A model generated the notes under the pieces. That model was not told the origin of the DNA, searched no databases, and saw nothing but the letters and a program-made list of their open reading frames with translations. Positions 2,976 through 43,488 of a stretch of DNA of 57,355 bases are shown here, piece after piece (within the stretch, counting starts at the first letter, position 1; every line of letters begins with the position of its first letter). The stretch comes from Thermodesulfobacteriota bacterium. GTDB taxonomy: Bacteria; Desulfobacterota_D; UBA1144; Nemesobacterales; CSP1-2. The position numbers and the translations under genes were made by a program. The DNA lies in NCBI GenBank assembly GCA_036397855.1, contig DASWID010000024.1:1-57355 (forward strand), read 5' to 3'.

Positions 2976-4199
2976 TTGAATAAAATGCTTGTGTGTTTTA
3001 TCGACGGATTTGATTTTAACAGGATAAACCCGGAAACAACCCCTTTTCTAGCAATATCCCTAAAAAAATATCCCTTTGCGAGAATTTCTGCTAATCCATG
3101 TACGGATCACTTACCCACATTACTGACCGGAAAACATCCTCACGAGCATGAGATATTTGATGTAATTCTTAGCAATAATAAAAAGAAAAATAATTTGTTA
3201 ATAAAATTTTTTCAGCTTTTGCCAGATCTTGTAACGACATCACTTCAATGTTTTTTGTATTTAATATCAGCTTCTTTTGATCTGCCTACGATACCTCCTG
3301 ATAGAAGAGAGCTATTCCAGATCATGAGAACTAAGACCTATAAACAAAAAAATAAATATGATAACTTAGTTAAAATTGGCAATTCTGAAACGATTTTTAA
3401 TATTGTCGGAAAAGAGCAATGCCGTTATTTATTCACACATTCTACTGACTTAAACCAAAAAATTCTCCCAAAGATTGGGAGAGGAGATTACACTCTTGAG
3501 TTAGTAGAAGTCTACAGTGTTGATATTGCTCAGATGTGGAATATGGATAAGGCTTCTAAGATCAACAGTTATTACAAAGAAATTGATCTTTTTATAAATA
3601 ACTTACATAAGAAGTGTCTTGGTAATGGTACTAAATTGATTTTAATATCAGATCATGGTTACGACAAGGTTGTTGGAACTATAGATATTTTGAGTTATAT
3701 GAGAGACTTAAATATTCGCGAAGATGAATTTACTTACTTTGTGCAATTTCCAATGGCGAGATTCTGGTTCAATGATAATATCACAAGGATTAAAGCATCG
3801 GAATTTTTTCATGGCATTAATAATATGAAATCCTTTGCTTGGCAGGAATTAAAAGAATTCGATCTCGTTTTACAAGATTCCCGATATGGTGAAATATTCT
3901 GCATGGCAAAACGCGGTTATATTTTTTTCCCGAATGACTTTGTTCAACCGATGGCAGATCTTTTTTTAGGATTAGTTGATAAAGAACAGAGGCCTCGGCT
4001 GTTCGACTCAAGACATAAAGGTAGCCACACATTTCTTAGAGAGTTTGATTCATCAAGAGGTTTTCTCATAATATTTGACGATAAATATAAGGCCTTAAAT
4101 TCAAACATTAAAATGGTGGATGTTGCACCATCCTTGCTAAAAATTCTAGGCTATAGAATTCCTGACAGCATGAATGGCAAACCAGCATTTAATATCTGA
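2976..4199 (+). CDS. alkaline-phosphatase-superfamily phosphodiesterase-like protein
   Basis: The 407-residue product resembles nucleotide pyrophosphatase/phosphodiesterases, which cleave phosphodiesters with a threonine nucleophile and two metals. Visible are the first metal aspartate (FIDGFD, near residue 10), the nucleophile block LPTLLTGKHPHEHE (about 47-60), the ISDHGYD metal pair (about 225-231) and a late GSHTF histidine. The usual DxxxH site reads DIAQM, so that histidine has become methionine. No signal peptide is seen. A paralogue of the same length is at 24304. Start chosen is TTG, nine bases upstream of an in-frame ATG, since GGGG lies at workable spacing. Substrate unknown; a role with the glycan locus 10 kb away is only suggested by the paralogue. 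Confidence 0.7.
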   Translation: MNKMLVCFIDGFDFNRINPETTPFLAISLKKYPFARISANPCTDHLPTLLTGKHPHEHEIFDVILSNNKKKNNLLIKFFQLLPDLVTTSLQCFLYLISASFDLPTIPPDRRELFQIMRTKTYKQKNKYDNLVKIGNSETIFNIVGKEQCRYLFTHSTDLNQKILPKIGRGDYTLELVEVYSVDIAQMWNMDKASKINSYYKEIDLFINNLHKKCLGNGTKLILISDHGYDKVVGTIDILSYMRDLNIREDEFTYFVQFPMARFWFNDNITRIKASEFFHGINNMKSFAWQELKEFDLVLQDSRYGEIFCMAKRGYIFFPNDFVQPMADLFLGLVDKEQRPRLFDSRHKGSHTFLREFDSSRGFLIIFDDKYKALNSNIKMVDVAPSLLKILGYRIPDSMNGKPAFNI

Positions 4200-4840: not shown

Positions 4841-5125
4841 ATGAGAAAGTTCTTATTATTAATGTTTCTTGTTCTCTTATTCGCAGTGCCCGCGATGGGG
4901 CGCGATACTCATCGTTTCAATCGTCACTTCAACCCTTATTATCAACACCACTACTATCCCCGTTATCGCTACTATCAGTACCCCCCTTCTTTCTATTTTA
5001 ATTATGCAGTGCCCTATCCTTATATTTACCAATACCCCTATATATATCCCACATATCCCTATATCTATCCCTATCCATACTACACTCCATATCCGTACTT
5101 CAACTTCGGCATCATAATTAGATAA
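4841..5125 (+). CDS. small secreted tyrosine/proline-rich protein
   Basis: The 94-residue product starts with a classical signal peptide (MRKFLLLMFLVLLFAVPAMG, cleavage likely after AMG). The remainder is dominated by tyrosine, proline and histidine: about the last 60 residues are runs such as YRYYQYPPS and PYIYPYPYYTPYPY. I do not recognise a family. Such composition is known from export-targeted structural or surface-coating peptides, and tyrosines could cross-link or bind metals, but no function can be assigned. The ATG has a good ribosome binding site (AGGAGT, seven bases away), which favours a real gene in spite of the low-complexity sequence. Two overlapping frames also stay open here because of the repetitive codons; the signal peptide and ribosome site select this one. 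Confidence 0.65.
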   Translation: MRKFLLLMFLVLLFAVPAMGRDTHRFNRHFNPYYQHHYYPRYRYYQYPPSFYFNYAVPYPYIYQYPYIYPTYPYIYPYPYYTPYPYFNFGIIIR

Positions 5126-5448
5126 TTTCTGCTGTCAGGACTGGAAATAGGAAATATGTAACCGCGTTTTAACCTTCATCTACTTGTAGTTTGACGAGTC
5201 TCTTTTGTTAAATACTGAGACGGGATGCGATCAATTTTACGCGTCTTACTTCAATTTTGTTATTACTGAACGAAATATCCTTGGGGTGGGATCTTTAGGT
5301 GTCTTGCTCAAAGGTATTTTAATCACTTCCAGTTAGCAGCCCTTTAAAACCCAATTAGGTGTTACATAGATTTTCAATCTGATGAACGAAAGTAATGGTA
5401 AGATGCAGCTCCGTTCATTGTTTTTTTCTTTAACGCCCCTAAAATAAA

Positions 5449-5678
5449 TTAAAGGGCAACCCTCTGTATTTAGAATTTGATTTCCCCTTTGGGCATCCTT
5501 GCGACCGGTAATGTAATATGCGCATTACCATCTTTTCAATTTCAGAATTAATTCATCGGAACTGCACTGCAATCCCTTCACTGTGTTTTTCATTAATAAT
5601 TGGACTTTCTAGGGTTGATTACTGTCGGCTGGGTATATGTATAAAGTTTAGCGCGAAAAAGGTTTGCGTTCCCTTTAA
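5449..5678 (+). mobile_element. TIR-bearing repeat, copy 3 (MITE-like)
   Basis: Left end TTAAAGGGCAACCC, right end GGTTTGCGTTCCCTTTAA. The interior is closest to copy 2 on the left side (TAGAATTTGATTTCCCC, CAGAATTAATTCATCGGAAC) and to copy 1 on the right (ACTGTCGGCTGGGTATA). It ends about 114 bases upstream of cdd. Confidence 0.65.
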
Positions 5679-6221: not shown

Positions 6222-6366
6222 TAGAAATTAATACGAACAACAGGCACTAATTACAGGTTATCAAGACGACAAAATTATATATTTAATTGGTGTGTGTCAC
6301 CAGTTATTTAAAAATATAAAACGAGACTCTGATTGAATTTGGAAGAGTCGGGAGGAAATTGTTGTG

Positions 6367-6681
6367 ATGATAGCAAGATGGCAGATACGGGCGAGATTCG
6401 GACATAAAGAGGCGGCTTTGGATTCCATGAAAAGATGGATTAAAGAAGTCGGGTCCCAAATAGGCTGGACTCCGGATAGGGTCAGAGTAATTACCGGTTC
6501 TATAGGAGCGTATGAATCGACTATTGAGACCGAGATAATGATCGAGGATTTAAAAGAGCTCGATGATGCCTGGAGCAAATTAGCGAAACTTTCTCCGCAC
6601 AAAAAATGGGGACAGGAGTTCGAAAAGCTGATTGTTTCTGGAACGGCACGCTGGGAGATATTCAGGGTAGTATCCGATTAA
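6367..6681 (+). CDS. conserved small protein, dimeric alpha/beta-barrel type
   Basis: A protein of about 104 residues that resembles a family of short conserved bacterial proteins with a ferredoxin-like, NIPSNAP-type dimeric alpha/beta-barrel look: an N-terminal strand (IARWQIRARFGHK), a central GWTPDRVRVITGSIGA stretch and the end GTARWEIFRVV. Function unknown; related folds bind small ligands or catalyse simple monooxygenase steps, but no catalytic residue can be pointed to. The ATG at 6367 was preferred to the GTG one codon earlier; both are served by GGGAGGAA at 6349-6356. It is a single gene, with the next copy of the repeat following within 180 bases. Confidence 0.7.
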   Translation: MIARWQIRARFGHKEAALDSMKRWIKEVGSQIGWTPDRVRVITGSIGAYESTIETEIMIEDLKELDDAWSKLAKLSPHKKWGQEFEKLIVSGTARWEIFRVVSD

Positions 6682-6859
6682 TTATATCTTTCGTCCGGAC
6701 TATACGATGCCTGTTATGTATGTTTCATAAAGGATTGAATAACACCACTTTGACCGTATGCCTTACAGTGGAAAGTTATTCTTCCAGCGAATGGAAGAGT
6801 ATTTTAGAAAACATGCATTGGCATGCTCCCCCTTATTATTTACCTCTGCAGTGCCTCGG

Positions 6860-7035
6860 TTAAATAGCAGGGAAAAGTCGGTTTGTGGTCCAGAACGCGA
6901 TCATAAAATCATATGAACGTAAGAATGATTCTATCGCGAGATTCAATGGTTTCATTGTGTTTCTCGATAATATTCGGACTTTCTGAGGTAGTGTACTGTG
7001 GATATATGAGGTTTGCTGCGGCTTCCCCTTTATAT
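6860..7035 (+). mobile_element. degenerate copy 4 of the TIR-bearing repeat
   Basis: The right half is clear (TTTCATTGTGTTTCTCGATA, CGGACTTTCTGAGGT, GTTTGCTGCGGCTTCCCCTTTA); the left end is barely recognisable. Shorter than the other copies because of internal losses. Confidence 0.5.
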
Positions 7036-7387
7036 TAAAGGAGAAAAGAAACAACACAGGAACCCGCTGTTTCGTTCACTAATTATTATGAATCTTCTAT
7101 CTTTTGGCTATGTCACGTTACCTAAGAATCCGGTTTTCAAGAGCTTATGACCAATTAGTTGACCGCGGAGTATCATGAGAGAAGATATTATTAAACTTGT
7201 TATGTATATAATAAATCGTTTATGATATATGGGTCTAATCGATTCAACACAAACCTTTGTAGTAAACGGTTATGGTGTTGTTGGGCATGGTGTGGGGTTC
7301 AAAATTGGACACCGACAAAAGATTTGATTCCTGACAAACCTGAAGGCTGTTACAATGTGCCGGTGTGAATAGGAAAAATCGAAAACT
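7036..7387. other. 352-base leader region without a gene
   Basis: AT-rich sequence with no open frame of interest. Candidate -10 sequences (TATATAAT near 7204) are present, but no convincing -35 partner was found. Confidence 0.3.
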
Positions 7388-8074
7388 ATGATGGGTTTTC
7401 ATTTAATAACATTTCTAATAGTTCTACAGCTACCTTCTACTTTTTCCAATTCTTCACAAAAAGAAATTGATAACGTGTCAACTGCTTGCTCAAATCCATC
7501 TGATTGTAAAATATATCTGGCTCAAAATAATTCCACCGAATCATCAGTGGATATGCGTGAAGCGAAACCAATAGAGGAGGTCTCGGAAAAGTTAGAGTCT
7601 GTTTCGAATCCACTTGGGAAGGCTTCGGAATCCATTGAATCGATTTCAAAGCCTATAGAATCATTATCGAAACCCCTTGAGTCAGTTTCGGAACCTCTGA
7701 GCTCAGTCTCGAAGCCGCTTGGCTCTGTTTCAAAGCCAGTCGATTCGTACCTCCAACCAGTTGATTCACTTAACAACTCTCAGGAATCCGAATCAGAAAT
7801 TGAAGAAGGAAAAGAAGAATTGGGAGGCTTGGGGGTTAAGTCTGTTCAGGGTGAAAAAGGGGAAATGGTAAAAGAACCATCGGCAGTTGAAGAAAAGTAT
7901 AATTCGTCAGATTCCGAGGAGAGTCTTGAAGAACTGTTTAAAGGAAGTGAGAACGTTGATGTAATAGAACAGCATTACGATAGGATAAAGGGCACAGGGG
8001 GGACTTATTGCAAGTGGACGGATGAGAATGGAATGATTCACATTGAATCTGGCGAGAAGTGTACAAGGGAATAG
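7388..8074 (+). CDS. secreted protein with serine-proline heptad repeats
   Basis: The 228-residue product has a hydrophobic N-terminus (MGFHLITFLIVLQLPSTFS) typical of a signal peptide. Residues about 65-125 form around nine tandem seven-residue units of the pattern [L/I/V]-x-S-[V/I/L]-S-[K/E/N]-P, for example IESISKP, LESVSEP, LGSVSKP. An acidic segment follows, and the C-terminus ends with a cysteine-bracketed CKWTDENGMIHIESGEKC, similar to the short DUF4124-type motif (KWxDExGxxH). The repeat arm might be an extended spacer or a glycosylated region (serine-rich); this is inference. No homologue is recognised for the whole protein, and no operon partner is visible. ATG at 7388 or the next ATG at 7391 could be the start. 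Confidence 0.65.
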   Translation: MMGFHLITFLIVLQLPSTFSNSSQKEIDNVSTACSNPSDCKIYLAQNNSTESSVDMREAKPIEEVSEKLESVSNPLGKASESIESISKPIESLSKPLESVSEPLSSVSKPLGSVSKPVDSYLQPVDSLNNSQESESEIEEGKEELGGLGVKSVQGEKGEMVKEPSAVEEKYNSSDSEESLEELFKGSENVDVIEQHYDRIKGTGGTYCKWTDENGMIHIESGEKCTRE

Positions 8075-13215: not shown

Positions 13216-13986
13216 ATGGAAAAACTCGACGGTAAACTTGCGGAGATTCGTGATTACTGGAATGATTACATAACCGACATCAGGTTAGCTAAATCCCCAG
13301 TTGGCACAAAGGAATTTTTTGATGAGCTGGACACCTACCGCTTCGGGCGGTCGGGGTATCTACTACCTATTGTCGAAGCGAGAAATCTAAAAGGGAAACG
13401 CTTGTTGGATATAGGATGCGGGGTCGCACTTGAACTTGTCCAGTTTGCAAAAGCGGGGGCTATTGTTACAGGCATCGATCTTTGCGCCAGACCCATTGAG
13501 CTGGCAAAAAAAAATTTCGCTCATAATGGGGTTGATGGGAACCTCCTTGTGATGAATGGGGAGGGTCTGCAATTCGAAGATAACAGTTTTGATTACGTTT
13601 ATTCAAGAATGCCGTTACAATACACAGAAAGCCCCGATAAAATGGTGGCTGAATTATACCGAGTGCTCCGGAAGGGAGGCGTGGCAACGCTAATTGTTTT
13701 CAACCGGTATTCCTGGCTAAACCTAGCAGCAAAGCTGTCGGGTGAAAACCTTTTGCACCAGCGTGCGCCGGTATTCAATCTCTACTCTGCAAAAGAATTT
13801 GGCAAGCTTCTGAGTTGCTTTAAAGAGCTGGCTATCACTACTGAAAGGCTACCAACGAAGACTACAGGGTATCCTGGGTTTTTTGTTTCCATGTACAATC
13901 ATTTATTTGTTCCTGCTGTCAAATTGGTACCAGAGACTATGTTAAAATCAATTGGCGCTCATATTGTCGCTAGGGCAGTTAAGTAA
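13216..13986 (+). CDS. class I SAM methyltransferase (type A, copy 1)
   Basis: A 256-residue Rossmann-fold methyltransferase. Motif I is LLDIGCGVALE (about residues 61-71), followed by the GID acidic end of strand two, the MNGEGLQFEDNSFDYVYS motif II/III and the ELYRVLRKGGVATLIV strand. A close paralogue is encoded at 16968, and both end in SIGAHxxARAxK, so they form a private subfamily of this locus. Substrate unknown; position at the beginning of a glycosyltransferase-rich region suggests a sugar or lipid-linked sugar, or a polyprenyl head group. TATAAAAC lies 20 bases before the ATG and no clear ribosome site is seen. The length, including an N-terminal helix (LAEIRDYWNDYITDIR) before the core, is normal. 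Confidence 0.85.
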   Translation: MEKLDGKLAEIRDYWNDYITDIRLAKSPVGTKEFFDELDTYRFGRSGYLLPIVEARNLKGKRLLDIGCGVALELVQFAKAGAIVTGIDLCARPIELAKKNFAHNGVDGNLLVMNGEGLQFEDNSFDYVYSRMPLQYTESPDKMVAELYRVLRKGGVATLIVFNRYSWLNLAAKLSGENLLHQRAPVFNLYSAKEFGKLLSCFKELAITTERLPTKTTGYPGFFVSMYNHLFVPAVKLVPETMLKSIGAHIVARAVK

Positions 13987-16967: not shown

Positions 16968-17669
16968 GTGGCAAGAAGCGAATTGGGCACTAGAGAGTTC
17001 TTTGCTGAACTGGAGCTATGTCATTTTGAAAAGCTTGATTATTTACCGAGGGTTGTTAATTATAGCGCTTATTATGATATGACGTTATTGGAGGTGGGGT
17101 GCGGACTTGGGTTTGATTTAGGGCGTTTTGCCAGTGGTGGCGCATTTGTTACTGGAATTGATATAAGTGAAAAAACTATTGAGTTAGCGAGAAGGAATTT
17201 CAAAATTCATGGTATCGACGGTGGACTGTCACCAATGAATGGAGAGAATCTGCAATTCAGCAATTGCAGTTTAGATGTAGTGTATTCCCATGGAGTGCTA
17301 AGCTATACCAATGATGCGAAACAAATGATTAATGAAGTTCACCGAGTGTTCAAGCCCGGTGGCGAGGCAATCTTAATGATGCATCATCGAAATTCATGGC
17401 TTTTCTATCTTGCGGACTTATTCGGTTTTAAGTTAGAATGTGAGAATGCACCGGTTTTTAAGACTTATTCGATTGGGGAGATTAAGAAGATGCTGGTAAA
17501 TTTTTCTTTTGTAGAGACTCTCACCGCACGATTTCCTGTTAAGACGCGAGTACATAAAGGCATTATGGGAAGAGTGTATAATTATTTATTTGTGCTTGTG
17601 TTCAAACTCCTTCCAAAGTCAATGGTAAATTCAATCGGAGCGCATCTCATGGCACGGGCTAATAAGTAG
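16968..17669 (+). CDS. class I SAM methyltransferase (type A, copy 2)
   Basis: A 233-residue methyltransferase closely related to the one at 13216: motif I LLEVGCGLGFD, FVTGIDISEKT, PMNGENLQF and the end SIGAHLMARANK. The start used is a GTG. Upstream of it, the same frame continues to match the paralogue (NIHDVN against YITDIR) for about eight codons to a TAA at 16946-16948, so the N-terminal helix has been lost or replaced, with the break next to a glycosyltransferase scrap. It may start at an upstream non-canonical codon or be N-terminally shortened. Two bases separate its stop from the GlpD-like gene, so the two are co-translated units. Substrate unknown. Confidence 0.8.
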   Translation: MARSELGTREFFAELELCHFEKLDYLPRVVNYSAYYDMTLLEVGCGLGFDLGRFASGGAFVTGIDISEKTIELARRNFKIHGIDGGLSPMNGENLQFSNCSLDVVYSHGVLSYTNDAKQMINEVHRVFKPGGEAILMMHHRNSWLFYLADLFGFKLECENAPVFKTYSIGEIKKMLVNFSFVETLTARFPVKTRVHKGIMGRVYNYLFVLVFKLLPKSMVNSIGAHLMARANK

Positions 17670-17671
17670 AT

Positions 17672-19351
17672 ATGAAAAGGAATTTAATCAAATTGGCTTC
17701 AAATGAATACGATCTGCTTGTGATCGGAGGTGGTATTTATGGTTCCTGTGTCGCATGGGACGCTTCTTTAAGAGGCCTTTCAGTTGCTCTGGTGGAGAAA
17801 GGAGATTTTGGCCACGCAACCTCGTTTAACACACTTAGAATAATCCATGGCGGGTTTCGTTATCTACAATCCTTAGCTGTTTTGAAGGCACGTCAATCAT
17901 TCTATGAGCAGATGGTTTTCATGAGAATCGCACCCCATCTGCTTCATCCTCTTCCAGTGCTTGTCCCAGCCTACAGACACCTGATGCAGGGGAAAGAAGC
18001 ACTTTCATTTGCGTTAAAGATTTACGATAAATTAGTTTGCAGAGCTTCTCACGAAGAATATCAACCAAGAATACCTAGGGGTCGAACCGTGACGAGAGAA
18101 GAATGTCTCGAAGCTTTCCCTGATATTGAAACGAAGGGCCTTACCGGTGGTATCATTTTTTACGATTGCCAGATTCCTAACTCGGAGCGACTGATTATTT
18201 CAATTGTAAAATCTGCTGTGGAATATGGGGCCGATTTTGCAAATTACGTTGAGGTTCAGGGCTTTTTAAAAACTAAAAGTCGGATAGAGGGTGTAAAGGT
18301 AAAGGACCTAATTACGGGGGATGAATTTACAGTTCGGGCAAGGTTTATTGTAAATACGGCCGGACCCTGGCTCCAAAGAATTTTGGGACTTCTCGAAAGG
18401 AAGGATTTTCAAAATAATTGTCGGTGGCTTTCAAAGGCCTTCAATTTAGTTGTAAAGCGCAAATTTCACAATGATTTCGGACTAGGGATTTATTGCCAAG
18501 CCCAAAACCATAAGACTTCACAATTATTGGGCAAAAGATCACGTTATTTATTCATCACACCGTGGAATAATTATTCCTTGATTGGTACTGAGCATCTACC
18601 ATTTGAAGATAATCCGGATAACTTATCCATTACTGAAGATGAGATGACAAACTTTCTCAGGGAGATCAATGAAGCCTGTCCGCAGGCATCATTGGGATTA
18701 GAGGATGTGCGCTTTGTATATAAGGGATGCCTTCCCACTATTCCAACAAACAGAGGTTCGTTACATCTTGCCTCGAAATACCGGATATACGACCATGGAA
18801 GGGACCAGGGTTTAGAAAGGTTTCTATCGGTAAGTGGAGTAAAATTTACGGAAGCAAGACACGTTGCGGAGAAAGTGGTAGACCTTGTTTTCAGTAAGTT
18901 AAATAAGAAACCGCTAAGATCTCGTACATCGGTAACCCCTGTCTATGGCGGCAAGCTCCAGTGGTTTAACGAATTCTTAAAACAAGAGACTAGTCGTAAT
19001 CTCTATAAATTAGATACTATTGATATTGAAAGACTTATCTCAAATTATGGTTCAGCATATACCGAAGTACTCAAATATCTTGAGAATGGTGAGGAATCGG
19101 AATCACTACATTCCAGTGATTTAATTCGGAAGTCCGAGATTTTACATGCGATTCACGAAGAGATGGCTCAAAAGCTAGGCGATTTTGTTTTTCGTCGTAC
19201 TGATTTGGATATTGGCGACCAAATTAATTGTGAAGATATAACGACATGTGCCAAAATAATGGCTCAAGAGTTAAATTGGAGTAGCGGTAAAATCAAAGAA
19301 GAGGTAGGTGAAGTAACAACTGTATTGTCTTCATTAAACTTGAATGGATAA
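17672..19351 (+). CDS. GlpD-like FAD-dependent dehydrogenase (intact copy)
   Basis: A 559-residue flavoprotein of the glycerol-3-phosphate dehydrogenase/DAO family. The FAD-binding Rossmann motif VIGGGIYGSCVAWDA is at about 17-31, followed by ALVEKGDFGHATSF and IHGGFRYLQSL, which align with GlpD. The C-terminal DAO_C-like helical domain is present (EILHAIHEEMAQKLGDFVFRRTDL). GlpD oxidises sn-glycerol 3-phosphate to dihydroxyacetone phosphate at the membrane and passes electrons to quinone. No glpF or glpK is nearby; instead the gene sits among glycan enzymes, so it may act on a related polyol phosphate or supply a precursor (inference). Its stop overlaps the next gene by eight bases. A broken paralogue is at 22019. 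Confidence 0.87.
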   Translation: MKRNLIKLASNEYDLLVIGGGIYGSCVAWDASLRGLSVALVEKGDFGHATSFNTLRIIHGGFRYLQSLAVLKARQSFYEQMVFMRIAPHLLHPLPVLVPAYRHLMQGKEALSFALKIYDKLVCRASHEEYQPRIPRGRTVTREECLEAFPDIETKGLTGGIIFYDCQIPNSERLIISIVKSAVEYGADFANYVEVQGFLKTKSRIEGVKVKDLITGDEFTVRARFIVNTAGPWLQRILGLLERKDFQNNCRWLSKAFNLVVKRKFHNDFGLGIYCQAQNHKTSQLLGKRSRYLFITPWNNYSLIGTEHLPFEDNPDNLSITEDEMTNFLREINEACPQASLGLEDVRFVYKGCLPTIPTNRGSLHLASKYRIYDHGRDQGLERFLSVSGVKFTEARHVAEKVVDLVFSKLNKKPLRSRTSVTPVYGGKLQWFNEFLKQETSRNLYKLDTIDIERLISNYGSAYTEVLKYLENGEESESLHSSDLIRKSEILHAIHEEMAQKLGDFVFRRTDLDIGDQINCEDITTCAKIMAQELNWSSGKIKEEVGEVTTVLSSLNLNG

Positions 19352-20162
19352 ACCCCAAATATATCAACAGAAGGAATATGCTAAAGGATATGACGACGAT
19401 AGATATGGTGGAGAATTTGGCCAATATTTACACGATTTGGATCTTAACACATTCTTGTCTTTAATGGATTTGTCTTACATAAATGTTCTCGATGTAGGAG
19501 CCGGCACAGGAAAAATTTCAATTCCTCTTGCTGTACAATCTCGGCATGTTGTTGCAGTTGACTCATCAGAGGAAATGATCAAAATTCTAAGCATGAAGGC
19601 AAAAAAAGGTGATGTCCAATTAGAAACCATCATTTGCGATGCCCACCGCCTTTGTTTTGATGATAAAGCATTTGATTGCGCTGTTTCTTCACGTTTATCG
19701 ATGCATTTAGACGATTGGAGAAAAGCAATCTCAGAGCTTTGTAGGATTTCCGCAGTCGCTACAATAATAGATTTTCCGCCATGCTTAAGTTTTGCTGGTT
19801 TGAGTTCAGTCCTAAGAAATATAAAGTGCTTTTTTATTCCAACTATTCAAACTTACAAGACTTTCTATATAAAAGACGTGGTTGATCAATTTCATAAACA
19901 TGATTTTGGGATCGAAGTTTCTTTTTTAGCAATGGGATGGATACGATGCGTACTTATCTTGATTTCTATGATTCCTATCTCCATTGCTGGGCTTGGAATA
20001 AGAGAGGGTTCCCTCATTCTGTTGTTAAGATCATTTGGCACCATTGATGAAGAAGGATTAGCATTTTCGCTATTGGTCTTTGCCGTAAGTGTTGTTTTGG
20101 TGGGGCTGATCGGGAGCTTGATAGGAGGAAAGAATTTATTTCGATCAAAATTTAGCCGATAG
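19344..20162 (+). CDS. fusion of a methyltransferase N-terminus to a membrane-protein tail
   Basis: The first ~188 residues match the SAM methyltransferase at 23509 (LDVGAGTGKISIPL motif I; DRYGGEFGQYLHDL). After HKHDF, at about 19905-19910, the sequence switches to SFLAMGWIRCVLI and continues as the C-terminal ~80 residues of the LPG-synthase-like protein at 25592 (SFFAMGWIRCAVV). In the second copy these two are separate genes with a phosphodiesterase gene in between. The simplest reading is a deletion that removed the phosphodiesterase gene and most of the membrane protein and joined the remains in frame. The methyltransferase part lacks its C-terminal region; activity is doubtful. The start overlaps the GlpD-like stop. 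Confidence 0.8.
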   Translation: MDKPQIYQQKEYAKGYDDDRYGGEFGQYLHDLDLNTFLSLMDLSYINVLDVGAGTGKISIPLAVQSRHVVAVDSSEEMIKILSMKAKKGDVQLETIICDAHRLCFDDKAFDCAVSSRLSMHLDDWRKAISELCRISAVATIIDFPPCLSFAGLSSVLRNIKCFFIPTIQTYKTFYIKDVVDQFHKHDFGIEVSFLAMGWIRCVLILISMIPISIAGLGIREGSLILLLRSFGTIDEEGLAFSLLVFAVSVVLVGLIGSLIGGKNLFRSKFSR

Positions 20163-20209
20163 TTTTTAAAACTTGGTTTTAGCCCAACAGTGGAATGTGA
20201 GGTTATGAT

Positions 20210-21991
20210 ATGTCAGCTATCTACGGATTAGTTGGTGAAGTAGATAAAGTTCTGTTGAGTTCAATGGGGGATCGACTACTACATCGAGGTAGGATTAGGT
20301 CTGAATGCGCACCTAAACATGATGTCATGTTAGGAGAGTATATCGGCGGAGATGATGAGACTCCGCTAGTCAATGAAAGAATTACATTGGTTGCGGATGC
20401 GGAGATATATAATGTTGATGAACTAAGGGAAAGATTAGTGTCTCGTGGTCGTAAGTTTGAAACCGAAAGAGATGAAGAAGTAGTACTACATGGCTATTTA
20501 GAATTCGGACCGACTATATTCAGGTACATTAATGGTGATTTTGCAATTGCACTCTGGGATTCTGATCGCTCACTATTATTATTAGCAAGAGACGCAGTTG
20601 GTTCTAAACCTCTATATTTCTGGCATGGAAAAGGACGCTTCGCTTTTTCATCAGAATATAAGGGCTTGCTAGCGCTACCAGATATTCCTGCTTTGGTAGA
20701 TCTCAATGTCTTGCAATACTTACAAAATTCAAAATACATTCCACATAATCGGGCGCTAATCAAAAATATCTGTTCTGTTCCTTCTGGACATTATCTTGAA
20801 TTTATCGAAGGAAACTATAGAAAGAGCCGTTACTGGGATCTCGGTGTTAACGTAAAGAACTTATCTATTAATGAACATGCTCGAATACTACGCGATAATT
20901 TTTTAAATGCTGTTAAGAGAAGAGTTTTTGATTTGTCTAGTGTTGGTGTTCTACTAAGCGGAGGCATAGATTCTTCATCAATTGCTTCAGCTATACGTTA
21001 TGTACGGCCTGAAATTCCTCTGCACACCTTTACCTGCGGGTATGGATCAAAAGATCCAGAAGTCTTAACGTCCGAAATTCTTGCAGGGGCAGTACAGTCG
21101 TCCCACCATTCTCTGATGGCAGATCCCGAAGATATACCAAGACTCTTGCCTCATATTGTATGGCACCTTGAAGATCCAATTGGTAGTAGTGAGAATCTAT
21201 TGACCTTTAAGGCATCTATGTATGCCGCCAAACATGTTGATGTTGTTTGCAATGGTTTTGGAGCTGACAGTCTTTTCGGAGGAATGCCTAGGTACAAAAT
21301 CATCAAGTTGATTCAGTGGTTCCCTTGGCTGAGAACTCCTTTGGAAGAATTTTACAACTATACTCAATATAGCTCGATTCCTTCTAGCATGATTGGTCGG
21401 GCCTTAAAAATTGCTTATTATCGAGGTTCGGATTCGTCTCCACCTTCAATAAATGGATTATCTACACCCTTGTCAGTTGAGCAACTACCGAAAGCTAAGC
21501 ACGAATTATTGAACCACGTTTTAATAGAGGTGGTAAAAAATGATCTGTCTAAAGCCTTTCCTAAGGCGGATAGGTTGTGTGTAGCACATGGATTGAGAAT
21601 TCGACACCCATTTACGGATCTTAATTTAATAGAACATGCCTTTACGATTTCAGATCGTTATAAGATTCGTTATTGGCGAGAAAAGCATATATTGCGAGAG
21701 GCTTTGAAGGATTTATTACCCAAAGAGGTACTAAATCGACCAAAATTCCCCCAGGCCATGAAAAGCGATCTCCTCCTAAGCGATGTACTAGAGGAATTAT
21801 CCTGTCAAGTTCTTTCACCCGAATCAGTGCGATCTCGTGGTTTTTTCAGTATCTATGATATTGAGCGGATGAGAAAGCGTTTTTCAAATAAACCATACAC
21901 CAAAGAACAATCGATGCGGCTGTGGACTGCGATTATGACAGAGCTTTGGGCGCAAGTTTTTTTAGATCATAGAGGAGAACCGATCAATTAA
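20210..21991 (+). CDS. asparagine synthetase-like amide ligase lacking the catalytic cysteine
   Basis: The 593-residue protein has the two-domain AsnB layout: an N-terminal class-II glutamine amidotransferase-like domain (about 1-200, with LLHRG, AEIYN and RDAVGSKPLYF) and a C-terminal ATP-pyrophosphatase domain with SGGIDSSS at about 248-255. Family members begin M-C-G, and the cysteine is the glutaminase nucleophile after Met removal. Here the start is MSAIYG, so it is absent, and HRGPD reads HRGRI. The ligase motif is intact. Such proteins may use free ammonia, another amine or an internal nucleophile, as in beta-lactam synthetase. In glycan clusters AsnB homologues amidate sugar acids. 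Forty-seven bases separate it from the fusion gene. Confidence 0.85.
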   Translation: MSAIYGLVGEVDKVLLSSMGDRLLHRGRIRSECAPKHDVMLGEYIGGDDETPLVNERITLVADAEIYNVDELRERLVSRGRKFETERDEEVVLHGYLEFGPTIFRYINGDFAIALWDSDRSLLLLARDAVGSKPLYFWHGKGRFAFSSEYKGLLALPDIPALVDLNVLQYLQNSKYIPHNRALIKNICSVPSGHYLEFIEGNYRKSRYWDLGVNVKNLSINEHARILRDNFLNAVKRRVFDLSSVGVLLSGGIDSSSIASAIRYVRPEIPLHTFTCGYGSKDPEVLTSEILAGAVQSSHHSLMADPEDIPRLLPHIVWHLEDPIGSSENLLTFKASMYAAKHVDVVCNGFGADSLFGGMPRYKIIKLIQWFPWLRTPLEEFYNYTQYSSIPSSMIGRALKIAYYRGSDSSPPSINGLSTPLSVEQLPKAKHELLNHVLIEVVKNDLSKAFPKADRLCVAHGLRIRHPFTDLNLIEHAFTISDRYKIRYWREKHILREALKDLLPKEVLNRPKFPQAMKSDLLLSDVLEELSCQVLSPESVRSRGFFSIYDIERMRKRFSNKPYTKEQSMRLWTAIMTELWAQVFLDHRGEPIN

Positions 21992-22018
21992 TTAAGGTTT
22001 TACGAATAATAGGGAAGT

Positions 22019-23516
22019 TGGCGGGTTTCGCTATCTACAATCATTAGATATTCTGAAGTTACGTCAATCATTCAGGGAACAGATGGTTTTAATGAAAATT
22101 GCAGCACATCTTGTTCATCCTCTTCCAGTTTTTATCCCAGCCTATGGACATTTTATACACGGAAAAGAGATACTTTCGCTAGGATTTAAGGTGCATGATC
22201 ATCTAGTTTGCGGAGTTCCGCATGATGACGATGAACCGAAAATACCTCGGGGTGGTACTGTGTCGAGAGAAGAATGTCTCCAAACTTTTCCTGATATAGA
22301 GAGAAAACGTCTTAGTGGTGGTATCATTTCTTACGATTGCCAGCTTTCCGATTCGGAGCGGTTTATTATTTCGCTTGCCCAATCGGCTGCCAAACAAGGC
22401 GCCGATGTGGCGAATAATCTCGAGGTAATAGGTTTTATAAAAAATAAAAATCGTATTCGGGGTGCAAGGATAAAGGACATCCTTACCGGAGACGAATTTG
22501 ATTTTCGAGCAAGTTTTGTTGTCAGTACATGCGGACCCTGGCTTCAAAGTATTCTGGGACTTATTGAACAATCTCCGGAGAAGCGTTACGGGTTTTCAAA
22601 GGCCTTCGACTTAGTCGTGAAGCACAAATTTCTCAACGATATCGCAATAGGTATTCGTACCCAGATCAAGAACTATAAGACTTCAGAATTGTTGGGTAGA
22701 AGATCACGCTATCTATGTATTACTCCTTGGAAGAATTATTCCTTGATCGGGACTGAGCATCTGCCATTTGAAGATAATCCGGATAATTTATCCATTCCTG
22801 AACATGAGATTACAAACTTTCTAAGGAAGATCAGTGAAGCCTATCCGCAGGCATCGTTGGGATTAGAGGATGTACGCTTTGTGTATTAGGGATGCCTTCC
22901 AACTATTGCCGCCAAAAGAGGTTCGTTACATCTTGCCTCGAAATTCTGTATATACTACCATGGAAGGGACAAGGGTTTAGAAAGATTTCTATCGGTAAGT
23001 GGCGTAAAATTTACCGAAGCAAGACACGTTGCGGAGTAAGTTGTCGATCTTGTTTTTGCTAAGTTAAATAGGAAATTACCAAATTCTCATTCCTCAGCGA
23101 CCGCGGTATACGGGGGAGACATGGAGTGTTTCAATGATTGTATTTTGGGTGAGATTCGTAGGAAGATCTTTGGATCAAGTCCGATCGACGTGCAGAGACT
23201 TATCTCAAGCTATGGCTCCATTTATGCTGATGTTCTTGAGGGCATTGATAAACCGAGACAGTTGGGCTTTGAAAATACCAGTGAATTATTAAAGAAGGCA
23301 AAAATTTTGCATGCAATTCGTGAAGAGATGGCTCATAATCTAAGCGATGTCCTATTTCGCCGCACTGAGTTGGGTATTGACGGCCAAATTAATTGTAAAG
23401 ATATAATGACACGTGCCGAAATAATGGCGCAAGAGTTAAATTGGAGTAGCGGTAAAATCAAAGAACAGGTAGGAGAAGTAACAACAGTATTATCTTCATT
23501 AACTTTGAATGGATAA
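22019..23516 (+). pseudogene. decayed second copy of the GlpD-like gene
   Basis: The sequence follows the intact GlpD-like gene from GGFRYLQSL to the end, but roughly the first 55 codons, including the FAD-binding GGGIYGS motif, are missing. Two in-frame stops are visible: AAG of the intact copy has become TAG at 22887-22889 (VRFVY then stop), and AAA has become TAA at 23036-23038. The last third is still open (from about 23039) and ends with the same LSSL-LNG tail overlapping the next methyltransferase start by eight bases. The 5' break lies just after the AsnB-like gene, marking the junction of the old duplication. Nucleotide similarity to copy 1 remains high. Confidence 0.88.
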
Positions 23517-24237
23517 GCCCGATATATATCAGCAAGAGGATTACGCTCAAGATTATGACGAAGACAGATACGGTGGAGCATTTGGTCAATACTTACACGA
23601 TTTGGAGCTTAATACATTCTTGTCTTTAATAGATTTGTCTTACATAAATGTTCTCGATGTAGGAGCCGGCACAGGAAAACTTTCAATTCCTCTTACTATA
23701 CAATCCCGTCATGTCGTTGCAGTTGACTCTTCAGAAGAAATGATCAAAATTCTAAGAATCAAGGCGAAAAAACGTGATGTTGAATTAAAAACCATTATTT
23801 GCGATGCTAATCGCCTTTGCTTCAATGAAAAAGCGTTTGATTGCGTTGTTTCTTCACGTTTATTGATGCATTTAAAAGATTGGAGAGAAGCGATCGCAGA
23901 GCTTTGTAGAATTTCCAGGGGTGCTGCAATAATAGATTTCCCCCCATGCTTAAGCTTTGCTGGTTTGGGTTCGCTCTTAAGAAAGTTAAAACGCTTTCTT
24001 ATTCCAGATACTCAAACTTACAAGGCTTTTATTATAAGAGACGTGATTGATGAGTTTCATAAACATGATTTTGAACTGGTTGTCATAGAAAGACAATTTT
24101 TTCTACCGTATGCCTTTCACCGGTGGCTTAACCTACCCTGGCTTTCTGCTAAGATCGAGAAATTGTTTATGAGATTTGGTCTTGTGAAGCTGATTGGAGC
24201 ACCCGTTATACTGAAAGCAATAAGGAAAAATAAATAA
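23509..24237 (+). CDS. class I SAM methyltransferase (type B, intact)
   Basis: A 242-residue Rossmann methyltransferase with motif I VLDVGAGTGKLSI (about 46-58), HVVAVDSSEEM as the acidic strand-two end, and FDCVVSSRLLMHLKDW as motif IV region. Its C-terminal segment (ERQFFLPYAFHRWLNLPW) is what the copy at 19344 has lost. It begins with an ATG overlapping the remains of the GlpD-like gene and is followed 66 bases on by the phosphodiesterase-like gene. The substrate is unknown; related UbiE/COQ5-shaped proteins in glycan loci methylate sugars or lipid carriers. That the GlpD, methyltransferase, phosphodiesterase and membrane protein genes were duplicated together suggests they act in one pathway. 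Confidence 0.87.
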   Translation: MDKPDIYQQEDYAQDYDEDRYGGAFGQYLHDLELNTFLSLIDLSYINVLDVGAGTGKLSIPLTIQSRHVVAVDSSEEMIKILRIKAKKRDVELKTIICDANRLCFNEKAFDCVVSSRLLMHLKDWREAIAELCRISRGAAIIDFPPCLSFAGLGSLLRKLKRFLIPDTQTYKAFIIRDVIDEFHKHDFELVVIERQFFLPYAFHRWLNLPWLSAKIEKLFMRFGLVKLIGAPVILKAIRKNK

Positions 24238-24303
24238 GGAAATTGGATACGATGGAGATGCAGTTTTCGAAAAGGAAGAGAGCGGAAGAACTGTGGAGAT
24301 TTT

Positions 24304-25533
24304 ATGAGTAATAAATTATTCGATCGATTTATGATATGTCACATAAGTGCTCTTGATTCTAGGAGAATCAATAAAAAGCATACCCCTTTCTTGGCGGATT
24401 CGTTCAATGGATATCCGTCGGTGACAATAGAGACGATTCCTGAGGTTGACTTGGATCCAACCATTATGACTGGCGTATATCCACATACGCATAAAATGTG
24501 GCAGGTCCGCTTAAAGGATGCGTCGGGGCCTGGCTTCGGGCCGACATTAACAGACGGGGTACCTGAAGTATTAACGTCCACATTTCAATGCCTCGTCCAC
24601 CTTTTCACCGGTTCATTTGATTTGGCTGGTGTTCCCAGTTGGCGGCGTAGGCGATTTGAAATAAGTAAAACAAGGTTCATGAAGAGGAGTGTAAGGGGGT
24701 TTCTGAGGCTAAATGGAATAGACACATATCTTAATGTAGTTGGTGAGAAAGACTGCAGCTTTATATATAATGAGAGGTTCGATGAATTATTTTCGGTATT
24801 GACAAGTCTTTCTCCTTTGAAGCACAAGCTCCAATTAGTGCAGATACATTCCTTAGACACCTTGCAACATTGGAATTTGGATAATCCGAATTACATTCAG
24901 ACTTCCTATGGGGAGATTGATCGCTTTGTCAAAGAGCTTCATAATCAGTGCAGGAAGAATGGTATCACTCTTATGGTCTTATCCGATCATGGTCAGGAAC
25001 CCGTTAAACGTAGCATTAATATACTCAAATTATTGAGAAAAATGGGGATACCTAAGCATGAGTATACCTATTATATCGAGGCTCCTAAGGCGAGGTTCTG
25101 GTTTCATTCGGATCGTGCTCGTGAGACTATTCTTGAGAAGCTCTCGTCTATACAGAATTCTACGCTTTTATCATATCGGGACCTCCATAAATATAATGTC
25201 AGATTCGAGGAGGAGAGTTTTGGCGAATACTATCTCATTGCAGAGCCCGGTTATATCTATTTCCCAAATGATTTTTACCATCCCTTGGCAAATATATTTT
25301 TAGGAGTTACAGACAGGCAACAACGAAGCCGTCTCTCTAGCCCGCAATATCGTGGCTACCATGGTTACCTGCCACATAATGAGTCTGAAAAAGGGTTCAT
25401 GATTCTTTTGGATGACTGTTATAAAGCCTCGAAAAAAGCGGTGAAGATTATAGATGTCGCGCCAACTGTGTTACGGTTGCTGGGATACGAAAAGCCGGAT
25501 TATATGATAGGTAATTGTGTGTTTTATATTTAA
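24304..25533 (+). CDS. alkaline-phosphatase-superfamily phosphodiesterase-like protein, paralogue
   Basis: The 409-residue protein is a clear paralogue of the one at 2976 (shared AKARFWF/MARFWF, GYIFFPNDF/GYIYFPNDF, PxANIFLG). The nucleophile block is DPTIMTGVYPHTHK, then SLDTLQHWN with an intact DxxxH, LSDHGQE and YHGYLP. The first metal aspartate is not kept: CFIDGFD of the paralogue reads CHISALD here. So this copy lost one ligand while the other copy lost the histidine of DxxxH. Enzymes of this superfamily cleave or transfer phosphodiesters; a partly altered metal site suggests a changed reaction or a binding role. It sits between methyltransferase and LPG-synthase-like genes, spacing 66 and 58 bases. 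Confidence 0.75.
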   Translation: MSNKLFDRFMICHISALDSRRINKKHTPFLADSFNGYPSVTIETIPEVDLDPTIMTGVYPHTHKMWQVRLKDASGPGFGPTLTDGVPEVLTSTFQCLVHLFTGSFDLAGVPSWRRRRFEISKTRFMKRSVRGFLRLNGIDTYLNVVGEKDCSFIYNERFDELFSVLTSLSPLKHKLQLVQIHSLDTLQHWNLDNPNYIQTSYGEIDRFVKELHNQCRKNGITLMVLSDHGQEPVKRSINILKLLRKMGIPKHEYTYYIEAPKARFWFHSDRARETILEKLSSIQNSTLLSYRDLHKYNVRFEEESFGEYYLIAEPGYIYFPNDFYHPLANIFLGVTDRQQRSRLSSPQYRGYHGYLPHNESEKGFMILLDDCYKASKKAVKIIDVAPTVLRLLGYEKPDYMIGNCVFYI

Positions 25534-25591
25534 CTTCACCAGTCTAGATCTTGCTCATTCTTCCGTCGTAGAAGGACTATAATTTATCTAT

Positions 25592-26566
25592 ATGGCTTTA
25601 AGTGGAATGATAAGAAAAAGGATATTGTGGACTGGACTTAGGGCATTTATTGCTTTTGGCATCCTCTATTATCTTTTTAGAAAAGTTCCTATTTCTCATG
25701 TCATAGGCACCCTTGCCAGCGCGAATTCAAACTACCTTTTTTCGTCTCTGCTAGTAACAATTCTGATAAGCCTGCTTGTTTCATACCGTTTGAAGTTTTT
25801 AGCAGAAAATCAGGGTATCCCAGTAACTACTTTACAAGCGTTCGAGATTAATACGGCGGCATTATTCTATAGACTATTTTTGCCAGGGGGTAATATAGCC
25901 GCAGGAGTCATTCGCTTTTATAAATTGTCATCACCGAATAGGAAAATGACGGAAGCCTTAGCCGCGCTCGCTTTCGATCGGATAATTGCAACAATCGCCC
26001 TGTGTATCGTGGGTATAAGCTTCTGGTTCATTCATTTTCCTTCTAATTCGGGCTATATTGCTCTGGGCATGAGTTTTGTTTTGACGGGATTGATCCTGGT
26101 AAATTTCGTTGTGTTTTTTGACAGAAGTTCAATTTTATTGAAAAAACTGTCGGAATTATTGGACCTAACTTTACTTTCGTCGGCTATATCGAGGCTTGTG
26201 ACCATAATAAATTGTTTTAGGAGATTATCTTCAAATTCTATTGCCTTTATATTAACGCTATCTTTAACTTCACAGGTTCTCGGAGTAGTCGTTTACTATC
26301 TGTTGGCATTAGCGTTGAATATTGAGATTTCATTCTTTGCAATGGGCTGGATAAGGTGTGCGGTAGTTTTGATCACAATGATACCAATATCAATATCTGG
26401 GCTGGGAGTAAGAGAAGGGTCGCTGCTCCTGCTATTAAAGCCCTATGGTGTAGATAATGATGAATCCCTGGCTTTCTCGTTTCTAATATTTATCATAACA
26501 GTTGTGATGATAGGGGTAATTGGTGGACTACTAGAAGGTTTAAGATTTCTTCTAAAGGATGTTTGA
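25592..26566 (+). CDS. LPG-synthase-type transmembrane protein (UPF0104/AglD family)
   Basis: A 324-residue polytopic protein with about eight hydrophobic helices, matching the flippase-like domain seen in lysylphosphatidylglycerol synthase, AglD and related proteins of cell-envelope loci. Landmarks are FLPGGNIAAGVIRFYKL (about 96-112), a conserved motif of this family, and the late MIPISISGLGVREGSL. It lacks the soluble aminoacyl-transfer domain of MprF, so it is the membrane part alone; proposed roles are moving or presenting lipid-linked sugars. TATAAT stands nine bases before the start codon. The last ~80 residues are duplicated in the fusion gene at 19344, showing that a second copy once lay there. 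Confidence 0.85.
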   Translation: MALSGMIRKRILWTGLRAFIAFGILYYLFRKVPISHVIGTLASANSNYLFSSLLVTILISLLVSYRLKFLAENQGIPVTTLQAFEINTAALFYRLFLPGGNIAAGVIRFYKLSSPNRKMTEALAALAFDRIIATIALCIVGISFWFIHFPSNSGYIALGMSFVLTGLILVNFVVFFDRSSILLKKLSELLDLTLLSSAISRLVTIINCFRRLSSNSIAFILTLSLTSQVLGVVVYYLLALALNIEISFFAMGWIRCAVVLITMIPISISGLGVREGSLLLLLKPYGVDNDESLAFSFLIFIITVVMIGVIGGLLEGLRFLLKDV

Positions 26567-26885
26567 TTTTCCTAGAAATTATTTTAGATTGAGAAGATGT
26601 AAGCATGGATGCTTTTATGTTCTGTTAATAGAATTAGTCCTATAATAAAATATCGCGTTCGTTCGCTGCCATGAGGATCATACATATTATTAGTCGTATC
26701 AGCGCTGACTAACTTTCCTTAGATGGCACATAGATATTTTGTGTTAATTCGCTTCGCATCAAAGGGTTCTATAAAAAGCATATCATCTTTTCCATATCCG
26801 AGTGGAGATTATATGTTAATTAACCAATATCAGGAATCCTCTATAGGTTCCTCAGGCCTTTTGGGGAATTAGCCAATTAAATACT
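26567..26885. other. gap with a glycosyltransferase N-terminal relic
   Basis: At 26671-26712 an ATG frame reads MRIIHIISRISAD then stop, the typical first strand of a GT4 enzyme (usual continuation GG followed by E). Near 26840 the frame SIGSSGLLGN resembles a GT4 donor-site turn. Nothing intact. A deletion remnant is the simplest view. Confidence 0.35.
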
Positions 26886-28382
26886 ATGGGGAAATTAAAT
26901 ATTGATGTAAATCTGATTCACTGGTTATTGCTAAACCTGATCATAATGCTGGGTGCTTTTTTAAGATTCTATGATTTGGGAGGCGAGAGTTACTGGTATG
27001 ACGAAATAATAATGCTGCGCGTGGCCCAAGATAATATCTGTACAATTGTCGAAGGTGGTCGCCCTCCTATATATATAATTCTGGCTCATTTCTGGATTAA
27101 GCTCTTTGGGACTGAAGAGGTTGCAACGAGGTCACTATCAGCGATATTGGGTGTGGCATCTATTCCTCTAATTTATTTGCTAGGTAAGGAGTTGTTCGAC
27201 AGGAAAGTGGGTTTGATCGCCGCTTTTCTCATGGCGATATCGCAGTTCCAGATATATTATTCCCAAGATTTCAGGTATTACAGTCTTTTCGTACTAATGA
27301 CTCTTTTTTCGTTTTTATTCTTTATACTCGCTTTAAGAGTAAGATCGGTTACTTATTTCGTATGTTATGTGATTTCAAGCATTTTGATGTTCTACACACA
27401 TACCTTCGGTGTATTTATCATTGTGGCACAAGCTATTTATTTTATTTTAAAATCCAGGAATTACGGGCAATTGGTGGCACTATGGTTTTTGAGCCAAGTT
27501 TTAATACTCTTAGCCTTACTGCCTCGCATTATAAATTACCTATTTAAGGTAAACACTGGCAACATTGGCCCCAGATGGTTGCCAGATCCGCCGTATTGGA
27601 CTCCTTTGATCACCTTGCAAAATTATGTTGGTGCCGGACTCGATTATCCTAGCTGGCAGACCCTTACGATAGGATTTTTGTTTTTCTTTTTCGGGATTTT
27701 GTTATTTGCTTTATGGAAGGGAAAGGATCGATGGGTCGAGTCGGTTGGAAGGCTCTCAAGAGATATAAGCGATCTTTCAACCAAACGCGACGAGTTACTG
27801 TTAATTGGTTTGTGGTTGTTGGTGCCGATATTATTGCCGTTTATATTATCGAAGATTTTACGTCCAATGTATCATTATCGATATACTATAGCTGCATCAC
27901 CCGCACTGTATTTGTTCTTAGCTTTAGCCATTGCGAAATTTCGAAAGGTTATTCCTGAATTGATTTCGGTAGGCCTCATTTTAATCGTTATTGCGCCCGG
28001 ATTGCATGAATTTTATGTTGCACCGGTTAGGGAGCAATGGCGTGAAGCGGCAAAATATGTAGAGGATAATTCGACAATTGATGATGTAATAATATTTGCT
28101 GATGCCGGGAAAGACCAGAATCGTGCTACTTTTAATTGGTATTATAGGGGGGCTCTGTCAGAATGTGGCATTAACAAGCACCTAAAGGACTATGCAGCTA
28201 TCGATAAGGAGTTTGTGAAATGTATGAAAGACACTGGCCGGTTTTGGTTTGTGGTACGAGAGGTGCCAAGCCCGGCCCACTATTTGACTGAATTCTTCTT
28301 AAGCAACACGAAAAGAAACCTAAAGCTGATAAGGGAACGAAGGTTTACGAAAATTACAGTCTACTTATTTCAGATGATGTGA
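26886..28382 (+). CDS. GT39-type membrane glycosyltransferase
   Basis: The 498-residue protein belongs to the dolichyl-phosphate-mannose-protein mannosyltransferase/ArnT-like clan, which transfers a sugar from a polyprenyl phosphate to an acceptor on the outer face of the membrane. The first luminal loop has FYDLGGESYWYDE, where the acidic residue of the DE pair is catalytic in the clan, followed by RPPIYIILAHFWIKLFGTEEVATRSLSA, a family hallmark. About eleven hydrophobic segments follow, then a soluble tail of about 110 residues. The GT2 enzyme at 14516 could make its lipid-linked donor. Acceptor unknown (lipid, glycan or protein). Confidence 0.9.
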   Translation: MGKLNIDVNLIHWLLLNLIIMLGAFLRFYDLGGESYWYDEIIMLRVAQDNICTIVEGGRPPIYIILAHFWIKLFGTEEVATRSLSAILGVASIPLIYLLGKELFDRKVGLIAAFLMAISQFQIYYSQDFRYYSLFVLMTLFSFLFFILALRVRSVTYFVCYVISSILMFYTHTFGVFIIVAQAIYFILKSRNYGQLVALWFLSQVLILLALLPRIINYLFKVNTGNIGPRWLPDPPYWTPLITLQNYVGAGLDYPSWQTLTIGFLFFFFGILLFALWKGKDRWVESVGRLSRDISDLSTKRDELLLIGLWLLVPILLPFILSKILRPMYHYRYTIAASPALYLFLALAIAKFRKVIPELISVGLILIVIAPGLHEFYVAPVREQWREAAKYVEDNSTIDDVIIFADAGKDQNRATFNWYYRGALSECGINKHLKDYAAIDKEFVKCMKDTGRFWFVVREVPSPAHYLTEFFLSNTKRNLKLIRERRFTKITVYLFQMM

Positions 28383-43160: not shown

Positions 43161-43267
43161 AAGGATATTATCGGTCAATTTAAACGGGAACGCACCAGTC
43201 CCTGTTCCCCCCACACGGGTAGCTCACCAGCTGGCGGGTTATTGTGCGCATCTTGAACACGCTCAAA
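43161..43267. other. spacer shared with 57160-57234
   Basis: ATCGGTCAATTTAAACGG and a CCCCCCACACGGGTAG segment match the region before the second copy of the two-hairpin element. GCGCATCTTGAACA at 43239-43252 also recurs in inverted form at 50261-50279. Confidence 0.6.
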
Positions 43268-43482: not shown

Positions 43483-43488
43483 AGGAAT

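Follow-up and report, generated by a model that had tools for sequence, protein, structure and literature searches.

Positions 17672–26566 of a stretch of DNA from a Thermodesulfobacteriota bacterium (hereafter the window: the whole of contig C24, 57,355 bases, from a genome of 3.1 Mb in 195 contigs, 95.7% complete and with 2.6% contamination) carry two collinear copies of a gene block in which different genes have decayed. The block, which may serve to make a sugar polymer, comprises genes for a GlpD-like FAD oxidoreductase and a methyltransferase (MT) and, whole in copy 2, for a phosphodiesterase-like protein (PDE) and a flippase-like membrane protein (MEM); an AsnB-like gene separates the halves. 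The locus offers an exceptionally legible example of a known evolutionary process, duplication with reciprocal loss, and we regard tandem duplication, long co-existence and then recent reciprocal loss as its best explanation, and as a probable one. A block of the glpD-like gene and MT, and probably also PDE and MEM, would have been duplicated in tandem in this lineage, and during most of the period that followed purifying selection would have acted on both copies, with partial exchange of sequence between them. Comparatively recently, each half would have lost different genes: glpD of copy 2 would have lost its 5' end and gained two nonsense mutations, and about 2.2 kb would have been deleted from copy 1, from late in MT to late in the membrane-protein gene, leaving an in-frame and probably dead fusion. 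The outcome would be one open version of each gene in the order glpD–MT–PDE–MEM, with asnB between glpD and MT.

Comparison of the window with itself by blastn returned two repeat pairs: 17848–19908 matches 22019–24073 (2062 columns, 78.7% identity, E 0) and 19918–20028 matches 26328–26438 (111 bases, 71%, E 2e-8). The pairs are collinear and agree in strand and order, and with these E values neither can be attributed to chance. The offset from copy to copy was 4165–4171 bp in glpD and MT and 6410 bp in the membrane-protein tail, a gap of approx. 2245 bp that would give the size of the deletion in copy 1. The anatomy described in an earlier note on this DNA was borne out, in copy 1 (an intact glpD-like gene, then MT fused to the tail of the membrane protein) by open reading frames (ORFs) and domain matches, in copy 2 (a glpD-like pseudogene, then intact MT, PDE and membrane protein) by alignment and open ORFs; the AsnB-like gene also lies between the halves, as stated there (Table 1). 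The further claim, of exactly one functional version of each gene, would hold for the linked genes, judged by the state of their ORFs, but not for the genome, in which a distant PDE paralogue is found at 2976–4199 of the window (35% amino-acid identity to 24304–25533; TTG start) and further AsnB-like and methyltransferase-like genes elsewhere. A third GlpD-like match was not found in the genome at E 0.001.

A tree was built of 23 GlpD proteins, namely both copies plus 21 outgroups selected among the best loci (the broken L031 was omitted, as was L014, which is identical in gene to L011). The copies came out as sisters at 100/100, their end branches being 0.15 for copy 1 and 0.33 for copy 2, and their common stem 0.71. 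The pseudogene aligns from codon 59 or 60 of copy 1 to the end, and the approx. 58 N-terminal codons that are gone include the site of the FAD-binding GGGIYG. What is left, about 1.5 kb, contains two stops (TAG at 22887–22889, TAA at 23037–23039), one in-frame gap of 6 bp and no frameshift. Of 77 columns with at least 90% agreement of the 21 outgroups, copy 1 departed in eight and copy 2 in 13, four of these being shared, and among the 37 columns identical across all outgroups the departures numbered one and three, respectively; by these counts copy 2 is just mildly more eroded. Four residues common to both copies, R80Q, G383R, T394E and P518I, are unusual against at least 90% of the outgroups, and a shift in the function of the GlpD-like protein may thus be older than the duplication. 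Two further glpD-like genes (L031, 1646–3485, from Hydrocoleum, and L091, 5074–6715) each gave a match in two parts and are possible additional pseudogenes.

The earlier note had called the event old, which fits the duplication (dS 0.66 and dN 0.21 over 497 codons of glpD by the method of Nei and Gojobori, NG86) but not the decay. Under a clock codon model, with equal time on both copy branches and four outgroups, the ratio of non-synonymous to synonymous rates (omega) was 0.30 for glpD of copy 1 and 0.41 for that of copy 2. Constant neutrality of copy 2 (omega=1) was rejected under this clock, at a cost of 16.4 log-likelihood units (lnL; likelihood ratio, LR, 32.7; p 1e-8), and likewise outside the most similar stretches (codons 60–285 and 400–480, 305 codons; 11.9 lnL, LR 23.8, p 1e-6). 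Branch omegas without the clock were dropped as uninformative, the outgroups being saturated. In simulations of neutral change starting from the intact copy (400 runs per point), the mean number of stops was 5.6 at 0.08 neutral substitutions per site and 6.9 at 0.10; two or fewer stops occurred at frequencies of 0.07 and 0.015, respectively. The clock codon model gives the copy-2 branch a length of 0.95 per codon, which over three sites makes approx. 0.32 per site; by this measure, the neutral phase would take up no more than approx. one quarter to one third of the branch. Given two stops, no frameshift and the rejection of constant neutrality, and provided that the clock holds, the duplication is far older than the decay.

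Another possible explanation is that glpD of copy 2 was born dead, i.e. that an end point of the duplication fell at codon 59 and the gene never had a start and simply decayed. The homology does end cleanly, 27 bp behind the asnB stop codon, as such an origin would have it; however, the clock model rejected constant neutrality even with the most similar stretches left out (a test with no power once the clock is given up), and two stops with zero frameshifts are few for plain decay over this length, and we consider this origin very improbable. An artefact of assembly, in which two strains or two loci were wrongly joined, is the explanation to which we give least credence. The assembly is in 195 contigs with 2.6% contamination, but base composition is even across the region, the flanking MT0 and PDE–MEM–PMT are also neighbours in G021, a genome of the same order, and both junctions lie well inside the 57-kb contig. 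The 21% difference between the copies also exceeds the usual strain variation within one species.

The fusion ORF raises a question of its own, as it could encode a working, membrane-anchored methyltransferase kept by selection. It runs for 272 codons in frame without a stop, its 189 MT codons retain the part matched by Pfam methyltransferase models (residues 48–135), and omega=1 was rejected for the MT of copy 1 (MT1, entered in the alignment as these 189 codons; LR 5.6, p 0.018). Against this, the fusion is without the C-terminal region that carries the consensus FFLPMVLHR ... GL ... GSPVIL in the six other aligned sequences (MT of copy 2, MT2, and five homologues from other genomes), and what follows the 189 codons aligns to the membrane protein. 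In an AlphaFold2 model of MT2, of modest confidence (mean predicted local distance difference test, pLDDT, 63.8; predicted template-modelling score, pTM, 0.66), the last two predicted strands are 188–195 and 233–239, and both are lost in the fusion. By point estimate MT1 also evolved faster than MT2 (omega 0.47 and 0.19 under the clock model; difference not significant, p 0.22), and the constraint on MT1 may predate the fusion. From alignment and model, the fusion is probably no longer functional as a methyltransferase, and we read it as a scar in a sequence on which selection had acted until the break; a working enzyme seems to us quite improbable; annotators should note that a 272-aa 'methyltransferase' at this place is probably such a scar.

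Synonymous differences between the copies are unevenly spread. Of the 767 codons aligned, 501 have kept a degenerate residue, with synonymous differences at 147 of them: 22/74, 21/54, 19/101, 18/33, 8/53, 17/81 and 13/63 by stretch, and 29/42 in the membrane-protein tail, the stretches having been picked after the identity profile had been viewed. A scan without chosen bins returned the tail as extreme (21/30, p 0.0004) and a low stretch in MT (1/30, p 0.036); within glpD alone it was marginal (p 0.04 for high and 0.098 for low stretches). The proportion of synonymous differences (pS) was 0.80 in the tail, near saturation, compared with 0.30 in MT and 0.44 in glpD. Two readings would account for this: an exchange of sequence between the copies across parts of glpD–MT, or a tail that predates the remaining stretches.

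This unevenness heads the points that weigh against the history preferred here: the identical-residue codons that differ are 29/42 in the tail versus 118/459 elsewhere, a pattern that a single event without later exchange does not produce. In the tree of the tail region an older split is weakly favoured, although the tail and the intact membrane protein as sisters were not rejected (approximately unbiased, AU, test, p 0.144). The selection test, moreover, presumes equal time and equal rate on both branches; the two glpD omegas are not significantly different (p 0.13), copy 1 being about as relaxed as copy 2, and once the clock is dropped, saturation of the outgroups prevents the two copies from being told apart (omega=1 for copy 2 then costs just 1.8 lnL). 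Finally, none of the relatives examined keeps the pre-duplication order, and the genome is the sole one of its genus in the comparison. The proposal of a tandem duplication with complementary loss was upheld in that the GlpD copies are sisters and a different set of genes is kept in each half; a single clean event is less certain, the tail being synonymously far more diverged than glpD–MT.

These points lead to the rival that we take most seriously, although we hold it to be rather unlikely: two events, in which the tail beside MT1 is a remnant of an older paralogue and glpD–MT alone was duplicated later. The junction of MT with the membrane-protein tail would then be an end point of the duplication and not the scar of a deletion, and copy 1 would never have held a whole MT or a PDE. 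The near-saturated tail, which the scan singled out, speaks for this, as does the tree, in which the intact membrane protein grouped weakly with that of G002, a genome of the same family but another genus (91/88 with eight rows, 86/87 with six), and not with the tail; the relative G021 also has two copies of the membrane-protein gene. By BLAST, however, the tail is nearest to the intact copy (approx. 61–62%, versus 46–51% to G021 and G002), and the AU test does not reject the two as sisters. Furthermore, the glpD stretch at 18870–19110 is similarly diverged (18 of 33 codons, in bins chosen post hoc), which points to conversion elsewhere, and the omega of 0.47 for MT1 suggests constraint for part of its time. 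We infer one duplication event with a deletion in copy 1, which would once have contained PDE.

Relatives were searched with PDE in 57 genomes of the class and with GlpD1, the intact copy, in 60, the window's own genome included in both. PDE matched in four genomes: its own, G021 (52% amino-acid identity), G002 (45%) and, weakly, G009. GlpD1 matched in seven: its own, G001 and G002 (both of the same family and at full length) and four others weakly and in part. The order in G002 is PDE–MEM–MT–GT4–glpD, and there (L011, G002:C19) the flippase-like gene is split over overlapping frames (6278–6844 and 6790–7224), by a frameshift, as a pseudogene or by sequence error. In G021 the arrangement is GT4a–MEMa–GT4b–MT0–PDE–MEMb–PMT, and neither glpD nor asnB is present in the stretch read (L098, G021:C116, 1–5894). 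GT4a and GT4b share 73% DNA identity and MEMa and MEMb 74%; the second pair, GT4b and MEMb, has MT0 and PDE inside it, whereas these are absent between GT4a and MEMa, the contig beginning inside GT4a. This is probably a second, independent tandem duplication in the same glycan cluster, because its membrane-protein copies are closer to each other (65%) than to the intact copy of the window (at most 44%, full length); that both stem from the window's event is disfavoured on the same grounds, although the short tail tree (six rows) is compatible with more than one order.

The surviving open genes keep the order glpD–MT–PDE–MEM because the left copy has retained the left-hand gene and the right copy those to the right of it; only asnB, which stands between glpD and MT, could have changed its relative place among the survivors. 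No close counterpart of it turned up among the 57 genomes of the class, where the best match besides itself reached 35% amino-acid identity, and no remnant of it was detected behind copy 2 in 26561–26890 (best tblastn E 1.5), for which reason a second or remnant asnB there was rejected. A compositionally foreign origin was likewise rejected, the G+C content at 20–22 kb (0.39–0.41) being like that of the surroundings. Repeats at the junctions able to drive the duplication were absent from the repeat listing and none was obvious in the sequence; no further test was made. We had considered that the reciprocal losses themselves lock the arrangement, and rejected this: by the anatomy, a crossover at 18875–19908 of copy 1 (to the right of the second stop) with its copy-2 counterpart leaves an open glpD–MT–PDE–MEM and removes asnB, the glpD pseudogene and the fusion, with asnB as the sole open gene lost. 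As collapse costs asnB alone, this gene can hold the halves apart. If anything separates them, it would be asnB, together with the 21% divergence, which may hinder recombination; the part that asnB plays in the arrangement would be of this kind. The locus raises the question of whether asnB stops the collapse.

Table 1. Features of the duplicated region and its upstream neighbour (aa, amino acids or amino-acid identity)
Feature	Position	Strand	Basis and remarks
Methyltransferase directly upstream of copy 1, outside the repeat	16968..17669	+	In some other phyla a homologue lies ahead of glpD-like genes (L017, L021, L028)
Copy 1: intact GlpD-like FAD oxidoreductase, 559 aa	17672..19351	+	Open frame; DAO 4.8e-40, DAO_C 7.7e-20; 65% aa vs copy-2 pseudogene
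Fusion ORF, 272 codons	19344..20162	+	Methyltransf_25 at residues 48–135; C-terminal part of LPG_synthase_TM at 187–257
Copy 1: first 189 codons of MT, in frame into membrane tail	19344..19910	+	78% aa vs MT2
Copy 1: tail (last ~83 codons) of a flippase-like membrane protein (LPG_synthase_TM), closing the fusion ORF	19911..20162	+	~61–62% aa vs residues 243–316 of the 25592–26566 protein
AsnB-like amidotransferase between the halves, single copy in region	20210..21991	+	TIGR01536 303.3 bits, cut-off 267.1
Copy 2: GlpD-like pseudogene	22019..23516	+	Self-alignment; two stops, N-terminal loss
Copy 2: open methyltransferase gene MT2, 242 aa	23509..24237	+	ORF, domain match, alignment, structure model
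Copy 2: type I phosphodiesterase/pyrophosphatase-like (PDE), 409 aa; no counterpart in copy 1	24304..25533	+	52% aa in G021, 45% in G002
Copy 2: whole flippase-like membrane protein (MEM), 324 aa	25592..26566	+	TIGR00374 65.7 bits, cut-off 43.2

The intact GlpD-like protein has the domains DAO (PF01266, 138.6 bits) and DAO_C (PF16901, 71.5 bits), both above their cut-offs, and by sequence it shares these, GxGxxG and HGGxRYL with the GlpD/alpha-glycerophosphate oxidase family (PDB 3da1, 2rgh, 2qcu). It missed the NCBIfam cut-offs for glycerol-3-phosphate dehydrogenase/oxidase (NF033461, 223.5 versus 840; NF008899, 221.8 versus 360). The arginine in the GLRPL or GVRPL motif of the solved relatives, which we take to bind the phosphate of the substrate, is lacking in the three members that were aligned. 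Among the best 80 of 290 confirmed GlpD-like loci in a collection of bacterial and archaeal genomes, divided into near, middle and far by bit-score limits of our own (300 and 240), a GT4 homologue was found in the same locus in 15/27 near, 2/15 middle and 2/38 far (Fisher, near versus far, 7e-6) and an AsnB homologue in 8/27, 2/15 and 0/38 (4e-4), the median locus length differing between near (12.2 kb) and far (15.4 kb). The near loci span several phyla and include archaea (Methanoperedens). The glpD-like genes nearest to that of the window often lie in glycan clusters, and the glpD-like genes of such clusters constitute a separate subfamily, another point for annotators. The oxidoreductase, AsnB and MT may decorate a lipid-linked glycan, and the flippase-like protein and PDE may handle its carrier. 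Literature on this set of genes was searched and no paper was found.

Elsewhere in the window, two methyltransferase paralogues (13216–13986 and 16968–17669; 44% amino-acid identity) flank two glycosyltransferase genes, perhaps from an older duplication in the cluster. The ORF at 1609–2598, beside the second PDE-like gene, is presumably BioB-like. A dispersed repeat occurs in both orientations at 43240–43490, 50084–50279 and 57155–57355, with 46 matches in the genome to a 251-base query, itself included, and a second family at 1328–1472, 2666–2895 and 5444–5677 (73–78% identical; 10 genome matches to a 241-base query, itself included). The ORF at 7388–8074 (228 aa) contains a run of short serine-/proline-rich repeats (SKPLESV-like), and that at 4841–5125 (94 aa) has a signal-peptide-like start and is very rich in tyrosine and proline.

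Bacterial gene blocks on their passage through duplication and back are seldom visible in one sequence, and our limited search of the literature on duplication with loss and gene order found no description of this locus. Complementary loss between copies is also the principle of duplication–degeneration–complementation, in which subfunctions of one gene are lost; here the losses are of whole genes from a multi-gene block. The locus has two collinear multi-gene copies (glpD–MT and the membrane-protein tail in both, in the same order and on the same strand) in which different genes have been inactivated and the remnants are still visible, i.e. the glpD pseudogene in copy 2 and the truncated MT–tail fusion in copy 1. 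In this it resembles tandem duplication–random loss (TDRL), as applied to mitochondrial gene order (e.g. PMC3283314), which likewise proceeds by duplication and complementary gene loss; unlike there, the setting is a bacterial chromosome, and only asnB, seen once, can have shifted its relative place. It also resembles the model of selection during niche adaptation (SNAP; Brandis and Hughes 2020, PMC7055797), in which duplication is followed by the inactivation of different genes in different copies, and essential genes lost from different copies bar segregation and leave the genes reordered. The locked state of SNAP also presupposes a duplication that selection for dosage kept at first. By its anatomy our locus is not in that locked state, since collapse would regenerate the block with the loss of asnB alone; its inferred unit is also small, about 6.4 kb compared with the tens of kilobases and more of the SNAP paper, and its copies would have co-existed long before decay. 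The authors of SNAP, whose abstract calls for further bioinformatic tests, in principle assign a natural isolate with one inactivated copy to a single-inactivation class (PMC7055797), and a locus with remnants of loss on both sides would represent a stage beyond it. Tentatively, and as a view we hold to be unlikely, the locus would be a natural, sequence-readable intermediate of duplication with reciprocal loss at operon scale, with a trapped single-copy asnB as the sole barrier to collapse and with copies approx. 20% diverged that were selected and partly exchanging before the losses, on a route that is recurrent if the duplication in G021 is independent. If this is true, that duplication, in which MT0 and PDE are likewise confined to one of the copies, would mark a recurrent evolutionary route for this glycan cluster.

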